From the IMG/VR virus record IMGVR_UViG_3300046507_000065, positions 1-42,837 of that record: a stretch of DNA of 42,837 nucleotides; one strand, written 5' to 3'. Source of the DNA: a virus. Numbering within the stretch: the stretch's first letter is position 1; the number at the start of each line of letters is the position of its first letter. Positions 1-42,837 of this stretch are shown here, in pieces. The notes beneath the pieces were generated by a model. The model saw nothing but the letters and a program-made list of their open reading frames with translations, was not told where the DNA came from and made no database searches. Made by a program: the position numbers and the translations under genes.

Positions 1-153
1 CAGAGGCTTGCCGTCCGCGAACCGGAGTAGGCCCTTGACCACGTCGGTACCCTGCGGCTGGAGCAGGATCGGCACTGGGTAGGCGCGGCCCCGGAAGTCG
101 AGGTTGTGGGGGAAGTAGAACCGATCCTCGTCCTTGAACCGATCAACCACGTC
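1..153. repeat. Terminal redundancy of the contig (copy 1)
   Basis: Bases 1-153 match bases 42685-42837 with one difference: G at 27 versus T at 42711, which gives Leu versus Ile in the polymerase reading frame. Both copies lie inside the polymerase gene and joining them keeps the frame exactly. It is therefore best read as the overlap of a circularly assembled map, not as biological phage ends. Confidence 0.93.
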
Positions 154-1260
154 CATGAGGTCCTTCTGACCCTTCCGGCCCAGCGTCATGGCGTAGTTGG
201 CGTTGTACACGTCACGCGCCTTCCAGCGCCACTCTCGTGCCGCCTGCGGGTTCGTGTCGATGTCGTGGGGTTTGTCCGGTAGGGCTTTGTCGTTCATGCT
301 GACGAGCCCTGCCAAGCCCGAGCCGATACCGATGAGGTGCTTCATGACCGCCAGCACCGGCTTGTTGATCTGCCACGGCGTGTTCTGGATGGCGTTGAGG
401 CCCTCGTAGACGACGGTGAGGTCGGCCTTCTGGAGCAACTCGCGATGCTCTGGTCTGGACTTCCTGACGAGCGGAATCGGACGTATGGCGTTCGAGAAGT
501 ACCCGCCCCCTGATAAGGCCTCCCACGGCTTCGGCTGGATCAGCGTTGGCATGAAGAACTGTGCCAACTCGGAGCCCCGGATGACTGAGGCCTCGACCCA
601 CTTGGCCGTCTTCTCGGTCAGTTGGATGAGGAGTTGATCGGCGTGCGCCTCCTTGTTCGCGCTGTTGGCCGCTGAGACCACCTCGGCTAGGCCGGTGCAG
701 TCGCAGAACAGTTCGATCATCTTGACCCCGAGGTGGATCTTGTCGCCAGCGGACCAGCGATCCCACGGGACTTCGTACTTGCCCATGGCGTAGGCCAGAA
801 CGATCCGCTTATGCGCGTCGGTCGCCCCGTCCTTCCGCAGGCGATCCTCGACCAGCCGGAACTGGTTGCCGTTCTCCCGCTCGAACTTACAGAAGCGGGC
901 CTCGTCTTCGATGCCGGAAGCGATCTGCTTTGCGAGGTGCGTGAGCGGGACCGCCTTCTTACCGATGGCCTTGTTGAGGATCACCCGCGAGACGATGATG
1001 GCGACCGCCGCATGGTTCATGTCTTTCACCAGTCGGGCCGCGACCGCCTTTGGTCCCGGCTTACCGGCGTAGATGCTATCGACGAAGGACTTGATGCTCT
1101 CCGACAGCGGGGCGATTGCCCCCCTTACGAGGAAGCTACCGGCGTCAGTCTGACCGGCGCGGTCCCCCTCGACGTTCTTGGTGTAGCCGGACAGGAACCT
1201 CTCGGTCCCTAGGCCAGCCATGGTGATCTCCAGTTCTATCTGGCGTTCGTATGGTGTCAT
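1..1260 (-). CDS. Phage DNA-dependent RNA polymerase, N-terminal part (cut by window edge)
   Basis: This is the first 420 codons of a single-subunit T7-type RNA polymerase, which transcribes the middle and late phage genes from phage-specific promoters. The ATG at 1260 overlaps the TGA of the preceding 86-aa gene (ATGA), indicating translational coupling. The frame stays open to base 1 and continues at 42684, giving 821 residues in all, slightly shorter than the 883 of T7. The N-terminal domain is poorly conserved in this family. The end of this segment includes the NLDFRGRAYP motif, which lies just before the palm. The gene sits directly downstream of the integrase/antirepressor region. Confidence 0.93.
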   Translation of the reverse strand, partial: MTPYERQIELEITMAGLGTERFLSGYTKNVEGDRAGQTDAGSFLVRGAIAPLSESIKSFVDSIYAGKPGPKAVAARLVKDMNHAAVAIIVSRVILNKAIGKKAVPLTHLAKQIASGIEDEARFCKFERENGNQFRLVEDRLRKDGATDAHKRIVLAYAMGKYEVPWDRWSAGDKIHLGVKMIELFCDCTGLAEVVSAANSANKEAHADQLLIQLTEKTAKWVEASVIRGSELAQFFMPTLIQPKPWEALSGGGYFSNAIRPIPLVRKSRPEHRELLQKADLTVVYEGLNAIQNTPWQINKPVLAVMKHLIGIGSGLAGLVSMNDKALPDKPHDIDTNPQAAREWRWKARDVYNANYAMTLGRKGQKDLMDVVDRFKDEDRFYFPHNLDFRGRAYPVPILLQPQGTDVVKGLLRFADGKPL

Positions 1261-1517
1261 GGGTACTCCCTTGGTGGATTGGCGTCGAGGTAGGCCTTGC
1301 ACGCGTCGAAGCTCATGAGCATCCGGTCGATCCACTCCTCGCACTTGGCTTCACTGTTGCGAACCACAGGGGCCTCCTCGTTGTAATGGATGACGCTGCC
1401 CGTAGGTATCATCGTGGTCTCCGTCGCCGGGACCCAGCGCTTGGTCTTGTGTTCAAACTCCTCGACGTACCAATAGAGGGACGTCTTGGTGCAGATGCGG
1501 TAGCGGGGGCGCGTCAT
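1257..1517 (-). CDS. Small protein upstream of the RNA polymerase
   Basis: This is an 86-residue hydrophilic protein with no family I recognise. The ATG at 1517 has a strong AAGGAG ribosome site six bases upstream, and the stop overlaps the polymerase start (ATGA), so the two genes are coupled. A class B promoter-like motif lies 24 bases upstream (1541-1551). The tryptophan- and tyrosine-rich N-terminal half is followed by a probable helix with two cysteines. The larger frame extending to 1712 runs into the antirepressor gene and lacks a ribosome site. Confidence 0.75.
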   Translation of the reverse strand: MTRPRYRICTKTSLYWYVEEFEHKTKRWVPATETTMIPTGSVIHYNEEAPVVRNSEAKCEEWIDRMLMSFDACKAYLDANPPREYP

Positions 1518-1540
1518 TCGTACTCCTTGTTGCGGTGACT

Positions 1541-1551
1541 GCGATAGTGCA
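1541..1551 (-). promoter_or_regulatory. Class B promoter-like motif before the polymerase operon
   Basis: The minus strand reads TGCACTATCGC followed by AG, just upstream of the 86-aa gene and the RNA polymerase. CACTA is shared with T7-type promoters. The flanking CTGC/GCAG half-dyad leaves a repressor operator as an alternative. Autoactivation of the polymerase operon is inference. Confidence 0.5.
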
Positions 1552-1560
1552 GGTAATCGA

Positions 1561-2292
1561 TTAAGCGGCGACGGGAACGTCGATCTGATTAGGGAGGCGT
1601 GCCCAGGCTGCACCAAAGTTAACACCCTTGGACTTACCGTAGAGGTAGTGAAGGGCGACATCACGACCGGCGCGGTTGACGACCATGGTCTGCTGCACCC
1701 TCCCGCTCGCATCTTTCATGGGGCGAAGTGCGAGGCTACCCGCAGGGGCGTTTGCGCGGACGAACGCACCCACATAGCTGGCGACACGCTCTGCGCGGAT
1801 ACCACCCATGACACCAATATCCATCAGCTTGTACCACAGGCCATCGTCGGCCAGCGTGGCCCGTACCTTACGCCCCATCACAGCAATCGCCTTCCTGAAG
1901 AACTCCTCCTGAGAGATCGCGCCGGTCGCCACATGCTCTTCGCCTTGGATGTACCCGCCGTCTTTACGGATGGCAGGGAGGACGATCTCGGTGACCCAGT
2001 TCTGGAAGACCTTGGCCTCGGGCTTGTCTGAGCGCAGGACCAGTTTGTAAAGCCCGCCTTCACTGATCAAGCGCTGGGAGCGGCGACCACTCTGTATTGA
2101 ATACAGAATGCTCTGCTCAACATCTAGCCGCGCCACCGCGTAGCCGTGTGACTGCTGGGGGAGACCAATGGCATAGCACACGTCCATGGCTGAGAACCAC
2201 GGCTGACCGTCGATCTCTACGGTGCGGACTTCATTCTCCCGGAACTTGAACAGGGAAACTGCGGATGCGGAGGCATTTGTGGATTTGCTCAT
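1561..2292 (-). CDS. BRO-N family phage antirepressor
   Basis: This is a 243-residue protein. Residues about 10-115 match the BRO-N/antirepressor N-terminal fold: FKF near the start, IDGQPWFSAMDVCYAIGL, then SEGGLYKLVLRSDKPEAK and FQNWVTEIVLPAIRKDGGY. These are hallmarks of phage antirepressors of the P22 Ant/BRO type. The C-terminal half (about 120-243) is not one I recognise and probably carries the specific function. Antirepressors bind DNA or the prophage repressor and favour induction. The gene lies between the integrase and the RNA polymerase, where it could gate polymerase expression. The start at 2292 has only a weak ribosome site. Confidence 0.88.
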   Translation of the reverse strand: MSKSTNASASAVSLFKFRENEVRTVEIDGQPWFSAMDVCYAIGLPQQSHGYAVARLDVEQSILYSIQSGRRSQRLISEGGLYKLVLRSDKPEAKVFQNWVTEIVLPAIRKDGGYIQGEEHVATGAISQEEFFRKAIAVMGRKVRATLADDGLWYKLMDIGVMGGIRAERVASYVGAFVRANAPAGSLALRPMKDASGRVQQTMVVNRAGRDVALHYLYGKSKGVNFGAAWARLPNQIDVPVAA

Positions 2293-2324
2293 ATTTGCTC
2301 ATCTTTTTGCACAGAGGGGAAAAG

Positions 2325-2366
2325 TGAGACAATCGGCTGCACTATCGCGGATAACCGATTGTCTCA
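2325..2366. repeat. 12-bp perfect inverted repeat enclosing a class B motif
   Basis: The arms TGAGACAATCGG (2325-2336) and CCGATTGTCTCA (2355-2366) are exact inverses around an 18-base loop containing TGCACTATCGC on the plus strand (2338-2348). It is located just upstream of the antirepressor. It could be a repressor operator, a transcription terminator for the integrase message, or an integrase/excisionase site. Confidence 0.85.
2338..2348 (+). promoter_or_regulatory. Class B motif on the plus strand, copy 1
   Basis: TGCACTATCGC is in the opposite orientation to all genes and sits inside the 12-bp inverted repeat. If it is a promoter, it would fire antisense toward the integrase and MarR genes. 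Confidence 0.4.
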
Positions 2367-2376
2367 TCAAGGAGAG

Positions 2377-2468
2377 CCACCACTAGGCTGATATTAAAGG
2401 CGTTTTTGCAATGAATGCACTATCGCGAGGGTCGATGACAAGATTGGTCATCTTCTTCCTAGTGGTGG
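2377..2468. repeat. 11-bp inverted repeat flanking the second class B motif
   Basis: CCACCACTAGG (2377-2387) and CCTAGTGGTGG (2458-2468) are exact inverses separated by 70 bases. Between them lie the second plus-strand TGCACTATCGC (2416-2426) and a GATGAC/GTCATC hairpin (2434-2452). Confidence 0.8.
2416..2426 (+). promoter_or_regulatory. Class B motif on the plus strand, copy 2
   Basis: This is a second TGCACTATCGC, 78 bases from the first and in the same orientation, pointing at the 3' end of the integrase gene. Confidence 0.4.
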
Positions 2469-2611
2469 ATGCTGCGGTTAAGTTGTTGAAAAGGCCTCAT
2501 TATTTAGTAAGTCAGCCTTATTCATTTTTGTCGCATCAGGGCGATTTATGCGCCCCTTTGTCTCATGATTTGATCATCAACCGCAATGATAAAATCAGGA
2601 TCTTACGGATC

Positions 2612-3619
2612 TTATGCCGCCTCGAAGGCGCGGAGGTTGTCCGCGAGGTGTTCAGGCGCGAGGTGCGCGTAGATCATCGTCGTCTCGACGCTGGCGTGGC
2701 CGAGGAACTTCGAGACGCTGAAGATCGGCACGTTGGCCTGGACCTGCCATGACGCGCATGTGTGGCGGCATGTGTACCAGACGGTGTCGTCCAGATGAGG
2801 CAGAGCAAGACGCAGGTCGCACCAGACATCGTGGCCGATCTGGCCGTAGAGGTCGAACCACGGCCCTTCGAGACCGAGATTGTGCTGACGCTTGATCGCG
2901 GCCTGCGCCCTCGCCGTGAGCGGGATGACGCGGGTCTTGCCGGTCTTGGTAGTCTCGCCCACCAAGGTCATGCGCCCCTCGGTGATGTGCTTCCAAGTCA
3001 GCCCCGAGGCTTCGCCCCAAGGACGTGCCCCGGTGTCGCACAGGAAGATGAAGAAGTCGCGCCAGCGGTTCATCTTCTTCTCTTCGAAGTACTCGATGAT
3101 CTCGAAGTACTCGTCACGGGTGAAGAACCGCTTGTTGCCTTCAGGCTCCCGGTGGTACGGCAGCGTGGGCATGTCGAACTTGGAGTGCTTCGCCACCACG
3201 CGGATGGTGGAGGTGTAGCGGTTCAGCGTCTTCGCGCAAACCTCGCGGGTCTCCCTGAGGTACTTCAGGAAGGCGAAGAGGTTGTCCTTCGACAGGGCCT
3301 CGCTGATCGGCGTATCCTTGCCCGCCCAAGCCACGAACACCCCGGAGTTGACCCTCGGGATGTGCGGTGCCTTCTTGGTGATCCAGTGTTCGTTGTAGCA
3401 GTTGTCCACTGCCTGCCCGATGGTGAGTTCGGTCGAGACCACCTTCTTCGGGGTAACGACCTTCTCTTCGCCGGGGATCGGGAGGCCGCGCTTGACGGCG
3501 TGACGGACATCCGCCTCCCACCCCTCGGCCTCTGCGTAGGAGGAGAAGGACTTCAGGTACGGGTGCCCGTCGATCCTGAACTTCGCCTGATGTGAATTGC
3601 CTCTGGTAATGACTGACAT
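2612..3619 (-). CDS. int: Tyrosine recombinase (phage integrase)
   Basis: This is a 335-residue integrase that would catalyse site-specific insertion and excision of the phage genome. It has an N-terminal arm-binding-like segment (1-60), a core-binding SAM-like domain (about 65-150) and a catalytic domain (about 165-320). Catalytic residues can be read: Arg199 (DTGARPWGE), a beta-hairpin Lys near 225-228, Arg285 in YTCRHTCASW, His308 in FLGHAS and the nucleophile Tyr317 in TTMIYAHL. The usual HxxR histidine is Tyr282. The ATG at 3619 follows AGGGG at good spacing. It lies 27 bases downstream of the MarR-type gene, probably in one transcript. An intact integrase is unusual in a T7-like phage. 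Confidence 0.95.
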   Translation of the reverse strand: MSVITRGNSHQAKFRIDGHPYLKSFSSYAEAEGWEADVRHAVKRGLPIPGEEKVVTPKKVVSTELTIGQAVDNCYNEHWITKKAPHIPRVNSGVFVAWAGKDTPISEALSKDNLFAFLKYLRETREVCAKTLNRYTSTIRVVAKHSKFDMPTLPYHREPEGNKRFFTRDEYFEIIEYFEEKKMNRWRDFFIFLCDTGARPWGEASGLTWKHITEGRMTLVGETTKTGKTRVIPLTARAQAAIKRQHNLGLEGPWFDLYGQIGHDVWCDLRLALPHLDDTVWYTCRHTCASWQVQANVPIFSVSKFLGHASVETTMIYAHLAPEHLADNLRAFEAA

Positions 3620-3646
3620 TCAAAACCCCTGTTGGTTGTGGAGACG

Positions 3647-3994
3647 CTACGCGAGCGCCTCCAAGGATTGCCAGACCCGCTGCCCCTTGGGCGTCAGGTT
3701 TACGCGCTTGTGTCTTCGGTCCATCGCGTCTTCCGTTGCGACGACGACATCGAGCCCGAGCATCCCCTTGCGGTGGTACTTGCTGAGGGCTGCGACGTTT
3801 CGCGAAACCGAAGAAGCGGGGTGGCCGATCATTGCCGCGATCTCGGTGATCGTGCAATTCGGTTTACCGGCAACAGCGATGAAGATAGCCATCTGCTGGG
3901 CCTGCATTTCGGGGTTGAGCTTACGGAACTCTTCCACAATTGCGGTGAGCTTCCGTGCTGCTCTAACTGTCTCTGCTGTGAGAGTGTTCAACAT
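3647..3994 (-). CDS. MarR-type winged-helix regulator, candidate lysogeny repressor
   Basis: This is a 115-residue DNA-binding protein. A helix-turn-helix spans about residues 48-72 (ITEIAAMIGHPASSVSRNVAAL). A wing follows with DRRHKRVNLTPKGQRVW, the typical MarR wing and final helix. MarR proteins dimerise through their terminal helices; here both are short, so this is a compact version. The ATG at 3994 has AGGGAAG seven bases upstream. It sits immediately before the integrase and after an operator-rich region at 4368-4467. Position and fold make it the best candidate for the prophage repressor, though it could also be an integrase activator. Confidence 0.85.
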   Translation of the reverse strand: MLNTLTAETVRAARKLTAIVEEFRKLNPEMQAQQMAIFIAVAGKPNCTITEIAAMIGHPASSVSRNVAALSKYHRKGMLGLDVVVATEDAMDRRHKRVNLTPKGQRVWQSLEALA

Positions 3995-4082
3995 GCGTGT
4001 CTTCCCTGTCTTGAGTTAATGGTTGACCCATTGGCAGTTGCCCACGTGCAGTCTTCTACAGTTTCGCGATTATTGCAAGAGG

Positions 4083-4271
4083 CTAACTAAAGCGCTCCTG
4101 CAACAGTTGTACGGCGAACAATGGACTGCTTCCGTCGTTGGGTTTGATGATGTCGAGACCCCGCTCTTTCGACTGGGAAATAAGCCAGTCCGTGTCTACG
4201 ACGTAGTCGAACATAAGAGCCGCACCTTCAGGATCGGTCTCTTCAAAATAGGCTTGAGCGGTTGCGAACAA
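4083..4271 (-). CDS. Possible small protein with TTG start, upstream of the MarR-type gene
   Basis: This is a possible 62-residue acidic, helical protein. Its TTG at 4271 is preceded by AGGAAA at reasonable spacing. The frame is open further upstream to a GTG at 4364 that has no ribosome site, and an internal ATG would give about 43 residues. The sequence has the mixed hydrophobic/charged pattern of a real protein but matches nothing I know. An excisionase- or Cro-like role is possible from its position only. Confidence 0.4.
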   Translation of the reverse strand: MFATAQAYFEETDPEGAALMFDYVVDTDWLISQSKERGLDIIKPNDGSSPLFAVQLLQERFS

Positions 4272-4367
4272 GATAATTAGTTTCCTCGTTATATGCGGGG
4301 CTGCATCTACCGGGACCCTCCGGCAGGAAGGCCCAATAAAGTCAATTTGTAGGCACGTCCACACAAA

Positions 4368-4377
4368 TAGTTAACTA
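4368..4377. promoter_or_regulatory. TAGTTAACTA palindrome, candidate operator
   Basis: TAGTTAACTA is a perfect palindrome and continues as a near-palindrome (AA before, TT after, one mismatch each side). It lies upstream of the small protein and MarR genes. MarR-family operators are often AT-rich palindromes of this kind. Autoregulation is inference. Confidence 0.4.
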
Positions 4378-4390
4378 ATTGTATGGAGTG

Positions 4391-4437
4391 CGTACGGATT
4401 TGGATTAGACCTTAGTCGTACGTCTGGGGTACGTACG
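4391..4437. repeat. Cluster of three CGTACG palindromes
   Basis: CGTACG occurs at 4391-4396, 4417-4422 and 4432-4437, three times in 47 bases. The adjacent 4450-4467 forms the hairpin GACGTT-cacgta-AACGTC directly after the stop of the last early gene. Together they look like an operator or terminator region at the junction of the early and lysogeny modules. Confidence 0.5.
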
Positions 4438-4467
4438 TCACCAGCCAGTGACGTTCACGTAAACGTC

Positions 4468-5010
4468 CTACACATCAAGGGTGTAGCGAGCGTATCGCTG
4501 GCCGGTGTGATCGACGTGGAAGGACCGGAGGATGCGGTGCCCAAGCTGCTTCAACTCGGAGATCCGCTTCGGCAGATCGCGGCAGCGCAGGACACCCTGG
4601 GCCTCGATAGCGGTGACGTTGCCCTTCTTGCGGAGCATGTCGAGGACTTGGGTCAACATCGGTGCCGTGGGTTCGACCGCCTTGGCCGGGATGACCGGCT
4701 TGAACTTGGCCTTCGGTACGGCCTTCTCACCGAGGAACTCGTCCAGCGATAGCTGAACCGTGGTGGAGACCGAGACGATCTCTCGCTGCGAGATCCACCA
4801 GAAGGTCGGCTCCTGTCCTTCCTTCAACAGCCCGAGCAATGCCGCCTCTGCGTACAGATCGTCTGTCGGGCCAGTTGACAGCCAGCCCAGACCGTCGTCG
4901 CGGAGGATGACCGCGTCACCCCAGCGGCAATTGATGTCAACGACGGTGCCGCTGATGTTGTCGTAGTTGAGCGTGACGTGCTTACCGATGAGGTTTTTGT
5001 AGTTCGTCAT
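4468..5010 (-). CDS. Early protein with C-terminal helix-turn-helix domain
   Basis: This is a 180-residue protein and the last gene of the early operon. The N-terminal half (1-80) is a beta-rich, SH3-like or KOW-like segment beginning KNLIGKHVTLNYDNISGTVVDI. After a basic, proline/alanine-rich linker (about 95-115), residues about 118-178 form a winged-helix domain: LTQVLDMLRKKGNVTAIEAQ, then RISELKQLGHRI and GQRYARYTL. This resembles the small phage HTH family that begins with a similar leucine-rich helix (Pfam HTH_39 type). A DNA-binding regulator is likely; its target is unknown. AGGG lies nine bases before the ATG. Confidence 0.8.
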   Translation of the reverse strand: MTNYKNLIGKHVTLNYDNISGTVVDINCRWGDAVILRDDGLGWLSTGPTDDLYAEAALLGLLKEGQEPTFWWISQREIVSVSTTVQLSLDEFLGEKAVPKAKFKPVIPAKAVEPTAPMLTQVLDMLRKKGNVTAIEAQGVLRCRDLPKRISELKQLGHRILRSFHVDHTGQRYARYTLDV

Positions 5011-5038
5011 GTTGTGTGCCCTTTCGTGGCTTGGTGGA

Positions 5039-5191
5039 TCAGTTGAAGGAGACGCCCGAGGCTGCGGCCCCGGTGATGTGGTAGGCGTTGTTCTTGACCA
5101 TGGCCGCAGCCGGTGAAGGCAGACGGACGTGTTCGAGGTGGGCGACTGCCGCGATGCGGGCGGCTACGAGCTTGGGGTGGTTCAGATGCAC
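5039..5191 (-). CDS. Small early protein, GTG start
   Basis: This is a 50-residue protein starting at a GTG that overlaps the end of the preceding micro-membrane protein. It has an alanine-rich helix (KLVAARIAAVAHLEHV) and a short C-terminal tail. The longer open frame upstream has no credible start because three well-spaced genes occupy that DNA. I do not recognise the family. Confidence 0.45.
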   Translation of the reverse strand: MHLNHPKLVAARIAAVAHLEHVRLPSPAAAMVKNNAYHITGAAASGVSFN

Positions 5192-5301
5192 GGCGAGTTG
5201 TCCTTGAAAGCGAGGGTGAGGATGATGGAACCGAGGGTGACCGAGGCAGCGGCCCCGGCCCACACGAGTAGCTGCATGGTGGCTAGCGCCGCTTCCAGCA
5301 T
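5182..5301 (-). CDS. Micro-membrane protein (39 aa), early
   Basis: This is a 39-residue peptide with one predicted transmembrane helix (LLVWAGAAASVTLGSIILTL). The ATG at 5301 lies inside the end of the previous gene and the stop overlaps the next start. It is the third of three consecutive single-span peptides. Its role is unknown; small early membrane peptides of phages may affect the host envelope or superinfection. Confidence 0.55.
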   Translation of the reverse strand: MLEAALATMQLLVWAGAAASVTLGSIILTLAFKDNSPCI

Positions 5302-5423
5302 TCGAGGCCCCCCATGATGAGTTGCTGCGTGACGAACAGGCAGACTGCGATGAGGGCGAGGGTCAGGGCCGAGAGACAGGCCATTGCGAGGAGCGGGATG
5401 ACGGTGTCGGCAATATCAGCCAT
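5283..5423 (-). CDS. Micro-membrane protein (46 aa), early
   Basis: This is a 46-residue peptide with a long hydrophobic span (VIPLLAMACLSALTLALIAV and on) followed by a basic tail ending CWKRR. The ATG at 5423 overlaps the previous stop and its own stop overlaps the next gene. The hydrophobic helix with positive C-terminus suggests an N-out or C-in inner-membrane peptide. The family is not recognised. Confidence 0.55.
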   Translation of the reverse strand: MADIADTVIPLLAMACLSALTLALIAVCLFVTQQLIMGGLECWKRR

Positions 5424-5514
5424 TGGTGAGCGCCTTTACTTGGAGCCAGAGGAAGCCGACGACGAGGAAGGTCAGCCAGATGTGCCATGAGGCGGCGAGT
5501 TCGTGGATGGTCAT
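5416..5514 (-). CDS. Micro-membrane protein (32 aa), early
   Basis: This is a 32-residue peptide with a tryptophan-rich transmembrane helix (WHIWLTFLVVGFLWLQV). The ATG at 5514 overlaps the TGA of the preceding gene (ATGA), and its end overlaps the next start at 5423. It is the first of three adjacent single-span peptides. Function unknown. Confidence 0.55.
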   Translation of the reverse strand: MTIHELAASWHIWLTFLVVGFLWLQVKALTNG

Positions 5515-5735
5515 TCGGGTTCCTCAGTTTGGAGCCACGTCTTGTGGACGCTGTACGCCTTTGGGTTGATGCGGGATTGGTGATGCAGACGTGCTGCCTC
5601 CTCCGTATCAAAGCAGTAGGTATGCACGGCGGCATGGAAGCGGACCTTGTGCGGGGCCTCATAGGGCCACCACGCGTCCTGATCGATCAGGTAGGTGAGG
5701 ACCCATATGGGCTTCCTCATGTGCAGCTTGGTCAT
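5511..5735 (-). CDS. Hypothetical early protein (74 aa)
   Basis: This is a 74-residue protein rich in aromatic residues and histidine (DAWWPYEAPHKVRFHAAVHTY). GGAGG lies eight bases before the ATG at 5735. The ATG overlaps the previous stop as TGATG and the stop overlaps the next gene as ATGA. It looks like a small soluble phage accessory protein. No family is recognised. Confidence 0.65.
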   Translation of the reverse strand: MTKLHMRKPIWVLTYLIDQDAWWPYEAPHKVRFHAAVHTYCFDTEEAARLHHQSRINPKAYSVHKTWLQTEEPE

Positions 5736-5863
5736 CAGCCACACCTCCAGCAGGAGAAGGCCACGCGGTGACCGCAGTTGACGCACTGGTCGTAGCCGGT
5801 CATCCCGCTCTCATCCCAGACGGCGCGGAACGAGTGTCGTCCAAACTTGCAGAGCCAGTACAT
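5735..5863 (-). CDS. Small zinc-ribbon protein (42 aa)
   Basis: This is a 42-residue protein with two CxxC pairs near its end (CVNCGHRVAFSCWRCG), typical of a zinc ribbon or zinc knuckle. The ATG at 5863 follows AAAGG. It overlaps the end of the preceding gene by 64 bases in another frame, more than is usual here. Such small zinc proteins of phages often bind host proteins or nucleic acid; the target is unknown. Confidence 0.65.
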   Translation of the reverse strand: MYWLCKFGRHSFRAVWDESGMTGYDQCVNCGHRVAFSCWRCG

Positions 5864-6018
5864 GCTGCGGCCTTTCGTTCTGCGAGGATCGCCTTGACGT
5901 CCTTGATGTTGTGGAGATGCGCCTTGCGCCACAGTGGGTCAGGCGTGGTGTCTGCGGCCCACTCAAGACGCCCGAGTTGGTACTCGAGGTCTTTGGTTTT
6001 CATGGACCGCCAAGTCAT
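5800..6018 (-). CDS. Hypothetical early protein (72 aa)
   Basis: This is a 72-residue charged, helical protein. The ATG at 6018 has GAGGAGG eight bases upstream and overlaps the previous stop (ATGA). A second ATG five codons later is possible. The last 20 or so residues lie over the zinc-ribbon gene and look less protein-like, so the true end could differ if an indel is present. Confidence 0.6.
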   Translation of the reverse strand: MTWRSMKTKDLEYQLGRLEWAADTTPDPLWRKAHLHNIKDVKAILAERKAAACTGSASLDDTRSAPSGMRAG

Positions 6019-7580: not shown

Positions 7581-7590
7581 GCGATAGTGG
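7581..7590 (-). promoter_or_regulatory. Class B promoter-like motif in the early operon
   Basis: The minus strand reads CCACTATCGCAG, sharing the CACTATCGC core but with C for the first TG. It lies 26 bases upstream of the 68-aa gene, in the short space after the gp88-like gene. Confidence 0.4.
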
Positions 7591-7595
7591 TTGGA

Positions 7596-8393
7596 TCAGC
7601 CGACAACGAAGCCGGACTGATCTTTCTTTGCGGGACCCTTGGCGTAGAGGCCGACGATGACGCCTTGCGGGTCGAGCCAGCGCATGTCGTCGCTGTCCCC
7701 GTCGATCACTTCGCGGCTCTTGACCATGGCGAGCGGATCTAGCTCCCACTGGGCATCCGACAGGTTGGCGGCTATGCGGATCTTTTCATCGCGCAGCGCC
7801 TTGGTGCGGTAGACAACGGCGATGTTCGCGCCGGTCTCGTGGGCGGTCTTAAGGATGGCGTCGGCATAGCGCTCGTCGGCACCCGAGTAGCTCAAGACCA
7901 GCCGGTAGTTGGCCGGAAGCTCGCGATAGAGCCTCTTGTAGATCTTGGTGTAATCGTAGAATTGCACGTCCGGGAAAGCGGCAAAGATGGACGTGAAGCG
8001 CTCACCCTTGTGGATGCAGGGATGCGCGGTTTCCCATTGGATGTCGGACGTGCCATTCAGGCGGACGGCGGGCTTTACACCCTTGCGAGCGCAGTGGCGG
8101 ACGAAGGCGGCTATGTCGCGGACCAGTTCGGCCATGAACGCGGCCCGATCTGCCCAGTAGCGCTGGGTTTTGGCGATGCGACCGATCTGGACGGACTTGA
8201 ACATTCCGCCGTTGCCGGACAGGTTAAGGCATCCTTCGACGCAAGCCGCCGTGCTGGCCATGGCGCAGACATTGAAGCCCGACAGTGTGAAGGGCGCGAG
8301 GTACATTATCGCGGTTAGCCACTTGCCCCCCTTGTCGCCCTTGACGGTCTTAGGGTTGATGCCAGCGGCGATAGTCTTGCTCTTGAAGGCCAT
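7596..8393 (-). CDS. gp88-family phage protein
   Basis: This 265-residue protein is the largest early gene. It matches what I know of the 'gene product 88' family of phages: GINPKTVKGDKGGKWLTAIM, a cysteine cluster around residues 43-55 (CAMASTAACVEGCLNLSGNG), then HPCIH and a YDYTKIYKR segment, and an AVVYRTK strand. The Cys pattern suggests a metal or iron-sulphur site, and the fold looks like a TIM-barrel radical-type protein, but no reaction is established that I know of. The ATG at 8393 follows AGGAA. Its own class B motif (8415-8425) precedes it. Confidence 0.8.
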   Translation of the reverse strand: MAFKSKTIAAGINPKTVKGDKGGKWLTAIMYLAPFTLSGFNVCAMASTAACVEGCLNLSGNGGMFKSVQIGRIAKTQRYWADRAAFMAELVRDIAAFVRHCARKGVKPAVRLNGTSDIQWETAHPCIHKGERFTSIFAAFPDVQFYDYTKIYKRLYRELPANYRLVLSYSGADERYADAILKTAHETGANIAVVYRTKALRDEKIRIAANLSDAQWELDPLAMVKSREVIDGDSDDMRWLDPQGVIVGLYAKGPAKKDQSGFVVG

Positions 8394-9635: not shown

Positions 9636-9646
9636 GCGATAGTGCA
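9636..9646 (-). promoter_or_regulatory. Class B promoter-like motif at the head of the early region
   Basis: The minus strand reads AATAATGCTTGCACTATCGC. The AATA five bases before TGCACTA mirrors the class A layout. It is placed like T7 phi-OL, left of the early genes. A weak host-type reading is also possible: TTGCAC, 17 bases, GATAAC. Confidence 0.45.
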
Positions 9647-10638: not shown

Positions 10639-10656
10639 GCTAGTGCAGTACCTATT
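10639..10656 (-). promoter_or_regulatory. Class A phage promoter, after the terminase
   Basis: The minus strand reads AATAGGTACTGCACTAGC, identical to the copies at 32327-32344 and 41425-41442. It is followed by TAGGG. TAGGT and CACTA also occur in the SP6 promoter. Its place downstream of the terminase mirrors T7 phi-OR. The preceding CCCCTAGAGGGG forms a short hairpin. Confidence 0.7.
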
Positions 10657-26409: not shown

Positions 26410-26638
26410 TGGGTAGTGTTCCTTATTGTTGTTCGGAAGGATGTGCGCGGTGCGCGGGTAGTCACCGCCTAGAAGAGGACAGTGTGACTTGCTTCGAACG
26501 AACAGAAGGATTGGTGGGAGAGGCTGGAGTGGAACCAGCACAGCATTAAGCGGGGCGTTTACAGCGCCTTGGTCTCGCCAGTGACGGCTCTCCCTGAGGT
26601 CCCCGGCATGCCTAGGGCAGAGACCGGGGGGTATTTAT
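26410..26638. other. Capsid gene leader region
   Basis: These 229 bases hold no gene. I see no class A or B promoter motif here, unlike T7, where the strongest promoter precedes gene 10. On the minus strand the leader starts with an AT-rich repeat (ATAAATAAATA), then a GC-rich stretch (CCCCCCGGTCTC) and many potential stems (GCCGGGGACCTC region). A structured 5' leader or RNA-processing site is possible. Confidence 0.4.
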
Positions 26639-32308: not shown

Positions 32309-32326
32309 GAGTGATCATCAATCTTG

Positions 32327-32344
32327 CTAGTGCAGTACCTATTA
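32327..32344 (-). promoter_or_regulatory. Class A phage promoter for the structural genes
   Basis: AATAGGTACTGCACTAGC on the minus strand, 19 bases before the first morphogenesis gene. It is identical over 18 bases to copies at 10639 and 41425. Equivalent in place to T7 phi-6.5. Confidence 0.75.
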
Positions 32345-39801: not shown

Positions 39802-39812
39802 GCGATAGTGCA
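39802..39812 (-). promoter_or_regulatory. Class B promoter-like motif before the SSB gene
   Basis: The minus strand reads CTTATTCGCTGCACTATCGC, 29 bases upstream of the SSB start. Its 26-base context matches a copy inside the RNA polymerase gene (42278-42303) at 22 positions. Equivalent in place to T7 phi-2.5. Confidence 0.55.
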
Positions 39813-41424: not shown

Positions 41425-41442
41425 GCTAGTGCAGTACCTATT
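41425..41442 (-). promoter_or_regulatory. Class A phage promoter after the RNA polymerase gene
   Basis: AATAGGTACTGCACTAGC on the minus strand, about 30 bases before the next gene and in tandem with a class B motif. The layout recalls T7 phi-1.1A and phi-1.1B directly behind gene 1. Confidence 0.75.
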
Positions 41443-41462: not shown

Positions 41463-41473
41463 GCGATAGTGCA
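41463..41473 (-). promoter_or_regulatory. Class B motif directly after the RNA polymerase gene
   Basis: The minus strand reads TGCACTATCGCTGATAATG, starting six bases after the polymerase stop codon. The GATAAT right after the motif resembles the GATAAC after the plus-strand copy at 2338. First of two tandem promoter-like sites. Confidence 0.5.
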
Positions 41474-41478
41474 CGGGT

Positions 41479-42837
41479 TCAGGCAAAGAAATAACGGGAG
41501 TTCAGCACCTCCTTTATATCGAGCGTCCCCATGGACGGCCTCGGTTCGAGTTCGATGTCGGTTAGGTCGAGCATGTCGAGGAAGCCGTTGAGGACATCGC
41601 CCTCGTACATCCCGACAAACTCAGAGCGGAGCGCGTTGGCCAGCGCAGTCGCGTCACATGCGTGGGTGCCATAGCTGTCGTGGATCATGGCGAAGTGCTT
41701 GATCCCATCCTTACTAAGACGGTGGACGGTCAGGAACAGAGCCGCCGCGTCGAGACTATGGACGAAGTTTGGGCTGACCGAGGTTGCCTGCTTCGAGGCG
41801 TTGAGGTCGTCAGTCTCTTCGTAGATGGCCGGTCGGATGACGGTACCATGGAGCTTGGTCTTGACCTGACGCTGCTTCATGTTCCGTATTTCCTGATGGG
41901 CGACGAAGCCTGACGGAGTTCGCCATGACAGCGATCTGTTCTCCTTCGAGAGCGTCCGAGCCACACCCTGTAGCCAGTCCATGGCCTGTCGGGCTGCGAC
42001 GACGACGTCCCCGATGCTGTCCCAGACGGTCATGCTGAGGTAGCCGGTAGCCTTCTTCAGTTCCTCCCCGAAGTTCTGCTCCTGCCCCTCCTTGATGCGC
42101 GTATCGACCGCCTCCTGCACGTACTTGAGACACGAGCGTGGTGTTCCACCGTAGGGTAGGACCATGACCGGCCTCTTGGTGATCTTCCGGTTGAGGCCAA
42201 ACTGCGTCCACCCGTATGCCCAGCGCTGCCGGTCGTGGGGTGTCGGCTGTCCTTCCTTCTGGAAAGGATCATCCTCTGCGGTAGTGCACGCAATAAGACG
42301 CAGTTTCTCCGTGGCAACGTCCGCAACACGCTGGTAGATGTCCTGCGGTTCTTCGCTGTCGATCAGGTTCACGGCACGGCCCCCGATTGGATCGCGGAGC
42401 ATGGCCGAGAAGTGCTGGAGCCCATTGCAGGAACCGTCGAGCGCCACGGCGAGGTGCGACACGAACCCCTCGGTGAACCTGTTGGCCCACTCGAAGCAGA
42501 ACGCGAGGAAGCACCACGGGTTGTCCGCGTTTGCCCACCAGCGGAACCCGAGAGGGTCTAGGGCGACCGCTTGGATCATGCGCCAGTGCTGTTCCACCCA
42601 ATCGCGCCTGGCCGTGAACGAGACCTTGTCCACCCCGAAGCAGTTCGCCCCGTGGATGGCCAGCCAGTACTCGCCGTCCTCGCCCAGAGGCTTGCCGTCC
42701 GCGAACCGGATTAGGCCCTTGACCACGTCGGTACCCTGCGGCTGGAGCAGGATCGGCACTGGGTAGGCGCGGCCCCGGAAGTCGAGGTTGTGGGGGAAGT
42801 AGAACCGATCCTCGTCCTTGAACCGATCAACCACGTC
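41479..42837 (-). CDS. Phage DNA-dependent RNA polymerase, C-terminal part (cut by window edge)
   Basis: This segment carries the palm, fingers and specificity regions. Catalytic Asp in ALDGSCNGLQHFSAMLRD (about residue 503 of the joined protein; T7 Asp537), Lys and Tyr in KITKRPVMVLPYGG (about 590 and 598; T7 Lys631, Tyr639), and the second Asp in MIHDSYGT (about 756; T7 Asp812). The C-terminus ends YFFA; T7 ends FAFA. The frame is continuous with 1-1260 across the contig joint. At 42711 it codes Ile where the other copy has Leu. Confidence 0.97.
   Translation of the reverse strand, partial: DVVDRFKDEDRFYFPHNLDFRGRAYPVPILLQPQGTDVVKGLIRFADGKPLGEDGEYWLAIHGANCFGVDKVSFTARRDWVEQHWRMIQAVALDPLGFRWWANADNPWCFLAFCFEWANRFTEGFVSHLAVALDGSCNGLQHFSAMLRDPIGGRAVNLIDSEEPQDIYQRVADVATEKLRLIACTTAEDDPFQKEGQPTPHDRQRWAYGWTQFGLNRKITKRPVMVLPYGGTPRSCLKYVQEAVDTRIKEGQEQNFGEELKKATGYLSMTVWDSIGDVVVAARQAMDWLQGVARTLSKENRSLSWRTPSGFVAHQEIRNMKQRQVKTKLHGTVIRPAIYEETDDLNASKQATSVSPNFVHSLDAAALFLTVHRLSKDGIKHFAMIHDSYGTHACDATALANALRSEFVGMYEGDVLNGFLDMLDLTDIELEPRPSMGTLDIKEVLNSRYFFA
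42278..42288 (-). promoter_or_regulatory. Class B-like motif inside the RNA polymerase gene
   Basis: The minus strand reads TGCACTACCGC, preceded by GTCTTATTGCG. Over 26 bases it agrees at 22 positions with the site before the SSB gene (39802-39827). It lies in coding sequence on the coding strand, so it could drive an internal transcript or be a recombination relic. Confidence 0.35.
42685..42837. repeat. Terminal redundancy of the contig (copy 2)
   Basis: Matches bases 1-153 except at 42711 (T here, G at 27). Confidence 0.93.

Follow-up and report, generated by a model that had tools for sequence, protein, structure and literature searches.

How does a phage built around a self-amplifying RNA polymerase stay dormant? 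The question is raised by positions 1257-5010 of the window, by which we mean the whole 42,837-nucleotide stretch that was analysed (IMG/VR record IMGVR_UViG_3300046507_000065). The record holds a self-closing, T7-like genome of 42.7 kb, whose ends overlap within the RNA polymerase gene by 153 bp that differ at one position (42685-42837 repeats 1-153); this is an assembly overlap, and the true ends of the virion DNA, with any direct terminal repeats, are not readable from this record. The genome encodes DNA polymerase, primase-helicase, exonuclease, SSB, portal, capsid, tail, internal virion and terminase proteins in T7 order, as well as the single-subunit T7-type RNA polymerase that marks Autographiviridae-type phages. 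A MarR-type regulator, an intact integrase, a Bro-N protein and the RNA polymerase, which an initial annotation had named, are all there, encoded on the minus strand and arranged as it stated (Table 1), and the MarR-like gene adjoins the tyrosine integrase upstream of the polymerase, as in the MarR-integrase module. We put at roughly 75% the probability that 1257-5010 serves a temperate T7-like phage as its module for integration and lysogeny control, working through the operon, attP and MarR in the manner proposed below. The gene set for integration and dormancy in a T7 relative is largely familiar; what is added here is an attP position that would cut the polymerase gene from the early genes, and a set of candidate repressor sites.

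Table 1. Features of the module and of related sites elsewhere in the window.
Feature	Position	Strand	Remarks
Winged-helix HTH_39 protein	4468-5010	-	Pfam HTH_39 9e-11; upstream member of early operon
93-aa protein	4083-4364	-	conserved; always adjoins MarR in the clade
MarR-fold regulator, 115 aa	3647-3994	-	Pfam MarR_2 28.0 bits, cut-off 27
Tyrosine integrase, 335 aa	2612-3619	-	PHROG 1 integrase 2e-42; no stop
attP region between integrase and Bro-N	2293-2611	-	44% G+C vs 60% for the record
Probable attP core AAGATGACCAATC	2442-2454	-	column equivalent of the BK376 13-bp core CAGATTTAGGTTC
Bro-N domain protein, 243 aa	1561-2292	-	Pfam Bro-N 65.8 bits, cut-off 25.6
Small ORF, 86 aa	1257-1517	-	directly before RNA polymerase
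RNA polymerase, N-terminal part	1-1251	-	runs on across the record ends at 41479-42837
RNA polymerase, C-terminal part	41479-42837	-	Pfam RNA_pol 7e-108
Class A site AATAGGTACTGCACTAGC, copy 1 of 3	41425-41442	-	candidate phage RNA polymerase promoter
Class A site, copy 2 of 3	32326-32343	-	candidate phage RNA polymerase promoter
Class A site, copy 3 of 3	10639-10656	-	candidate phage RNA polymerase promoter
Candidate operator CACTATCGC	1541-1549	-	upstream of small ORF and RNA polymerase
Candidate operator CACTATCGC in attP	2340-2348	+	antisense to genes; 48 bases before Bro-N start
Candidate operator CACTATCGC in attP	2418-2426	+	same alignment columns conserved in relatives' attP
Candidate operator CACTATCGC	7581-7589	-	before an early gene
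Candidate operator CACTATCGC	9636-9644	-	early region
Candidate operator CACTATCGC	39802-39810	-	before ssDNA-binding protein gene
Candidate operator CACTATCGC	41463-41471	-	directly after RNA polymerase stop; 29-30 bases before first class A site

The early operon runs from the HTH_39 protein through the 93-aa protein, MarR, the integrase, attP and a cargo of Bro-N and the small ORF to the RNA polymerase; scans of 1200-6000 for sigma-70 promoters and terminators returned matches at shuffle level. Both the clade and Mesorhizobium phage Lo5R7ANS conserve the HTH_39 protein, and the 93-aa protein, which had no match in Pfam, PHROG or NCBIfam, is 44-59% identical in relatives (tblastn). The winged-helix MarR fold of the regulator is indicated both by its Pfam score and by structural alignment of its AlphaFold model, which superposes on DNA-bound E. 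coli MarR with a Z of 12.5 and 1.4 Å over 77 residues. This protein is 56-67% identical across clade members and is probably the lysogeny repressor. MarR-type regulators lie beside integrases in dozens of phage records, and their adjacency is a published hallmark of temperate T7-like phages (PMC10134795). A MarR protein in place of a CI-type repressor had been thought an uncommon switch; it is not new, because it is already the described switch of the temperate T7-like phage LUZ100, of Pasto and of pelagiphages.

The integrase has the catalytic residues R199, K225, R285, H308 and Y317; the first H of its HxxR motif is Y throughout the clade, the integrated prophage of Rhizobium sp. BK376 included. 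It is about 40-41% identical to the integrases of this prophage and of the IMG/VR proviruses of the clade; a single-protein search of viral contigs for integrase relatives found none. In BK376 both hybrid ends can be read: tRNA-Leu(UAG) is interrupted within its anticodon loop by integration at a 13-bp core, the same site is uninterrupted in 11 related genomes, and the prophage carries a replacement tRNA-Leu(UAG) that is the only intact UAG leucine tRNA found. This suggests that tRNA-Leu genes beside these integrases replace the host gene broken by integration, as an alternative to imprecise excision. Three provirus records (G001, G301 and G305) end at the integrase stop and begin just before the RNA polymerase. 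The window attP contains arm-like repeats (TGAGACAA/TGGGAAAA) and aligns nearly gap-free around the core to attP of BK376 and of five related records (L022-L025 and L027); its probable core overlaps an inverted repeat, GATGAC-7-GTCATC, at 2434-2452. Relatives have attP between integrase and RNA polymerase, and the aligned attP suggests the same for the window phage, in which case integration would separate the polymerase from the early operon.

The proposed search for a prophage form with hybrid ends thus succeeded for near relatives, with both ends in BK376, and not for the window phage itself. A search of 297 Hyphomicrobiales genomes with its integrase gave no close prophage of it, nor did a genome-contig scan with the MarR alignment, which matched only BK376 and Hoeflea alexandrii, and two core patterns used to look for its attB gave only scattered matches, in unrelated genes or at about the chance rate. 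Because its integrase shares only about 41% identity with the one in BK376 and the core differs, we infer its integration target from the relatives only; these also indicate that its host order is probably Hyphomicrobiales. A tRNA-Tyr gene at 26512-26594 was rejected as a replacement tRNA, the attP core being unlike its anticodon loop and the gene lying far from attP. With near relatives that are prophages with hybrid ends, and an integrase intact in 10 of 10 aligned clade members, the sequence evidence supports the initial annotation in treating this as a temperate-type T7-like phage.

These features can be assembled into a proposed switch. On infection, host RNA polymerase would transcribe from the early operon across attP into the phage polymerase gene, and the phage enzyme would then start the lytic programme from class A promoters. 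For dormancy, the integrase would recombine at attP, as it does in relatives, and since attP lies between the integrase and RNA polymerase genes these would come to stand at opposite ends of the prophage; the polymerase would then be out of reach of the early promoters, and MarR on the CACTATCGC sites at the early genes, the polymerase gene flanks and attP would keep the rest silent. That one MarR operator set over these three places couples repression to integration, with attP placement switching the polymerase off, is a tentative proposal to which we give somewhat less than even odds. None of the genes examined was recognised as a separate excisionase, and MarR bound in attP could also fill this gap as directionality factor. 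The position of attP hints at a simple physical switch, and the CACTATCGC element offers short, testable targets for MarR.

The sites themselves fall into two kinds. Class A sites occur in the clade genomes compared as three near-identical copies per genome, in matching places and with a sequence that varies between genomes, and as candidates they behave as promoters should. Seven copies of the CACTATCGC element stand in the genome where 0.28 are expected. Each is intergenic or at the start of a gene; they lie in the early region and next to the RNA polymerase gene, and attP holds two of them. In G001 and G301 the copy after the RNA polymerase stop has the same spacing to the first class A site, and related sites seldom occur outside the early region, the two sides of the polymerase gene and the end with the integrase. 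In LUZ100, two sites resembling CACTATCGC lie in the stretch from integrase to RNA polymerase; the scanned fragments of Lo5R7ANS, Pasto and the Limnohabitans phage gave no copy. MarR is the proposed repressor in LUZ100 and its relatives, and we found no description of an operator set for it in the published accounts consulted. MarR-family proteins bind palindromic operators as dimers; for the regulator here, CACTATCGC is the best candidate operator. Of two stretches suggested earlier for regulator binding, 2293-2611 holds two copies and is also attP, while 4368-4467 holds none. A DnaA-box reading, prompted by TATCCAC in some relatives, was dropped because the conserved part, CACTATCGCAA, goes beyond the DnaA consensus.

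The CACTATCGC elements might instead be phage RNA polymerase promoters, the two attP copies driving antisense transcripts over integrase and MarR. CACTAT does match T7 promoter positions -7 to -2, several copies have an upstream TAAT-like tetranucleotide, and sense copies precede start codons. This is nonetheless unlikely, as the element is nearly absent from some 26-30 kb of middle and late genes in three clade genomes (one weak coding match, in G301), a like element occurs in LUZ100, whose mapped promoters have another sequence, and it is the class A sites that fit promoter expectations. The whole-genome distribution and the LUZ100 comparison led us to rank the promoter reading below the operator reading.

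The initial annotation had also proposed that a repressor/antirepressor pair controls polymerase production. The cargo protein has the Bro-N domain of Bro-N antirepressors and so resembles phage antirepressors (a sequence search against solved structures gave no match), and it is encoded between two candidate operator groups, directly before the RNA polymerase operon. Against a pairing with MarR, Bro-N is absent from all relatives with the same MarR, integrase and polymerase, which keep MarR without it, and the sole resemblance is a weak match to its C-terminal part in L027 (21%). The slot between attP and RNA polymerase is variable, with different cargo in each relative, such as a restriction-methylation pair in Lo5R7ANS and a phrog_1843 protein in L024; the small ORF recurs at 92% identity in L027, there placed between attP and another gene. 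We therefore consider it improbable that Bro-N and MarR together set RNA polymerase production. Bro-N would rather be accessory cargo at the attL end, outside the conserved switch, where it may tune induction.

Less probable still is that the phage integrates without stable lysogeny, the module being a transient integration device as in T7-like cyanophages. Those phages do integrate, yet no stable lysogens have been found, and they have the same set of MarR, integrase, attP directly after the integrase, and tRNA-Leu (PMC8776855). Whole relatives, however, are present in the genomes of sequenced isolates, namely BK376 and, in IMG, the isolate records G001 and G301, and BK376 appears dependent on its prophage tRNA. 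A decaying remnant in a now strictly lytic phage would accord with a free self-closing contig for which the searches gave no prophage form, but is very improbable given an open integrase with conserved catalytic residues, a conserved attP and the degree of MarR identity across the clade.

The lysogeny module favoured here has counterparts at several distances. The T7-like cyanophages P-SSP7 and S-TIP37 and pelagiphage HTVC019P are distant in sequence from the window phage, although P-SSP7 and HTVC019P also match its MarR; in the cyanophages, attP matches the first half of tRNA-Leu over 39 bp (PMC8776855). MarR adjoins integrase ahead of RNA polymerase in LUZ100, Lo5R7ANS, the Limnohabitans phage and Pasto. 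The MarR of Pseudomonas phage LUZ100 is 48.5% identical to that of the window, but LUZ100 infects Pseudomonas, its slot lacks Bro-N, its tRNA-Leu precedes the integrase and its mapped phage promoters are different; its authors could not isolate stable lysogens (PMC10134795). Lo5R7ANS (Mesorhizobium phage vB_MloP_Lo5R7ANS, Pairvirus) has the same order of GP88, HTH_39, 93-aa-like protein, MarR, integrase, cargo and RNA polymerase, and its RNA polymerase is 53% identical to that of G001, a near relative of the window phage; it differs in its integrase (29-30% identical) and in a cargo of restriction enzyme, methyltransferase, tRNA-Leu and RtcB where the window has Bro-N. Closest are the same-clade BK376 prophage and G001, G301 and G305 (RNA polymerase 70-74%, capsid 87-92% and MarR about 61-67% identical), which share the layout and, where readable, the attP design; they differ in an integrase of about 40% identity and the lack of Bro-N, and BK376 also in a core and replacement tRNA of the tRNA-Leu(UAG) type.

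The window spans 42,837 bases. Its first and last 153 bases overlap with one mismatch, within the RNA polymerase gene, so the contig is self-closing, with a length of about 42.7 kb. Nearly all genes lie on the minus strand, among them every gene named in the initial annotation, whose calls were right, and a T7 set is encoded elsewhere (SSB, primase-helicase, DNA polymerase, exonuclease, portal, scaffold, capsid, tail proteins, internal virion protein and terminase). The proposal that this phage is temperate is well supported through its relatives, which include a prophage in Rhizobium sp. BK376 and several proviruses. The comparisons contribute three things: a tRNA replacement seen at prophage ends, an attP position that splits the early operon, and a directly testable set of candidate operators.

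Features of the window, including class B sites (candidate MarR operators)
Feature	Position	Strand	Remark
HTH_39 protein	5010-4468	minus	
93-aa protein	4364-4083	minus	conserved, family unassigned
MarR-like protein	3994-3647	minus	
Tyrosine integrase	3619-2612	minus	
Gap, 319 bases	2611-2293		attP region
Core position	2454-2442		AAGATGACCAATC
Bro-N protein	2292-1561	minus	
Small ORF	1517-1257	minus	
RNA polymerase	from 1251	minus	
Gene product 88 homologue (PF17338)	7596-8393	minus	early region
tRNA-Tyr(GUA)	26512-26594	minus	encoded CCA; just before major capsid gene
Class B	9644, 7589		before early genes
Class B	1549		before ORF preceding polymerase
Class B	41471		after polymerase
Class B	39810		before SSB gene
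Class B	2340, 2418	opposite	in attP

Scanning viral contigs for the polymerase recovered a close clade (L021-L029) with about 70-74% identity across the C-terminal half of that protein; six members have capsids at 87-92% identity, and three members are, apparently, isolate records by their names. One of these three, L029 (G306), is the BK376 prophage itself, because the sequence before its polymerase is identical. The Gene product 88 homologue is 60-73% identical over the clade and Mesorhizobium phage Lo5R7ANS. The tRNA-Tyr is absent at the six closest capsid loci; elsewhere, a tRNA-Asn precedes the capsid gene of Pseudomonas phage LUZ100, and a tRNA-Ile lies within the 3.9-kb capsid locus of the more distant G002.

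In BK376 the hybrid ends of an integrated phage are present: contig 7 carries the integrase end and contig 1 the polymerase end. The native tRNA-Leu(UAG) is split, with bases 1-41 at 36520-36560 of contig 1 and bases 29-85 at 275966-276022 of contig 7, and within the anticodon loop the two parts overlap by exactly 13 bases, CAGATTTAGGTTC. The same stretch is uninterrupted in 11 related genomes (92-95% identity), and the tRNA is intact in all six of these that were checked. Within the prophage, adjoining attR, lies another tRNA-Leu(UAG) that shares 80% identity with the host copy; no other intact leucine tRNA with this anticodon was found in the draft genome. The host gene is thus broken on integration, and a substitute comes with the phage. 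L022, L023 and L025, relatives from metagenomes, likewise have tRNA-Leu(UAG) and then the core. The integrase-side tRNA-Leu of LUZ100 has been explained as possibly recruited through imprecise excision (PMC10134795), but BK376 is better explained by substitution for the gene that was disrupted. In the provirus records G001, G301 and G305, which are cut at gene borders, integrase and RNA polymerase again occupy opposite ends.

The attP region of the window aligns to those of its relatives, almost gaplessly near the core, where its own sequence stands in place of that of BK376. Repeats of the TGAGACAA type occupy the positions of the relatives' TGGGAAAA, a pattern expected of integrase arm sites, which they may represent. 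Because the core differs and no tRNA adjoins it, this phage probably integrates at a different site from the BK376 prophage; two core patterns yielded no conserved host locus for its attB. The integrase has an open reading frame and its catalytic residues, and shares 37-42% identity with most integrases of the clade (49% with that of clade member L027), a divergence consistent with a changed target. The first histidine of HxxR is a tyrosine in the whole clade, the demonstrably integrated prophage included.

From the operon order and the layout of BK376 and the proviruses, we infer a consequence of this attP position. In an infecting genome the early operon would read via MarR, integrase and attP into the RNA polymerase. 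In the prophage it would stop at attR, with the polymerase at attL behind host DNA, such that integration alone would remove the host RNA polymerase's route to the phage polymerase gene. A scan of the gap flagged no terminator-like site on its minus strand. An attP after the integrase is known in T7-like cyanophages (PMC8776855); in the literature consulted we found no discussion of its separating polymerase from early operon.

The genome also carries two repeated elements. Class A, AATAGGTACTGCACTAGC, a candidate phage RNA polymerase promoter, has three copies, all on the gene strand and one directly after the polymerase. G001 and G301 each have three copies at matching places with sequences of their own (TTAGGTACACCCCTAGCT and ATAGGTTGACCAATAGCT), and a similar block follows the polymerase in 10 of 10 genomes inspected; this constancy within genomes and drift between them is as expected of promoters co-evolving with a phage polymerase. 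Class B, CACTATCGC, has seven copies where 0.28 would be expected (300 simulations gave two at most), but other 9-mers are equally frequent and the count alone is not an argument. What matters is position: all seven copies lie between genes or at gene starts. G001 and G301 have 10 similar sites each against fewer than one in shuffles, partly by construction, as the matrix was built from these two genomes and the window; nearly all lie in the early region, near the polymerase or at the integrase end. In LUZ100, an independent check, the best two sites (scores 18.0 and 15.5) both fall in the 331 bases that separate integrase from RNA polymerase, a score of at least 18 being reached in 2% of 150 shuffles, and its mapped phage promoters differ from these sites. 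Of what LUZ100 shares with the clade here, the MarR protein is the clearest; a weaker HTH_39 match lies at another place. Distribution, LUZ100 sites and shared protein together make class B, on sequence grounds, the best candidate for the MarR operator. Counting against this, the fragments scanned from Lo5R7ANS, Pasto and a Limnohabitans phage gave no class B hit. The block after the polymerase (41463-41471 region and relatives) is a palindrome, followed about 30 bases later by the class A site. Its arms appear to co-vary (for example CACTGTTGC-7-GCAACTGTG in L021, CACTATCGC-7-GCGATGGTG in the window), and it could also act as an RNA hairpin.

The antirepressor pairing of Bro-N with MarR, suggested from the Bro-N domain name, did not extend to relatives. 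Bro-N is absent between attP and polymerase in the module-bearing relatives examined; L027 weakly matches its C-terminal part only, and there the small ORF is 92% identical, yet the order differs. Cargo in this slot varies by phage (restriction-modification genes, a phrog_1843 protein, putative membrane proteins), and the most fitting view of Bro-N is as attL-end cargo that may have a regulatory role but does not belong to a conserved switch.

The MarR assignment holds at three levels: the protein exceeds the Pfam cut-off, its alignment profile matches a PDB MarR sequence, and its structural model aligns with operator-bound E. coli MarR (Z 12.5, 1.4 A over 77 residues). The 93-aa protein directly precedes MarR throughout the clade, and weakly likewise in Lo5R7ANS; it is possibly a partner of the regulator. 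Further MarR-integrase pairs occur in Hyphomicrobiales genomes (L017 and L018, on G269 contig 16 and G021 contig 1; MarR 38-40% identical), G021 with a tRNA-Leu(UAA) beside the integrase. Hoeflea alexandrii (L013) encodes a 45% identical MarR homologue, but its genome gave no match to T7-type RNA polymerase; the homologue may mark a remnant or a different element. MarR homologues are also found in many pelagiphages and cyanophages, and MarR, integrase and RNA polymerase stand in the same order in the cultured phages Lo5R7ANS, LUZ100, Pasto and the Limnohabitans phage. A MarR regulator instead of CI, initially considered an uncommon switch, is the known arrangement of temperate T7-like phages.
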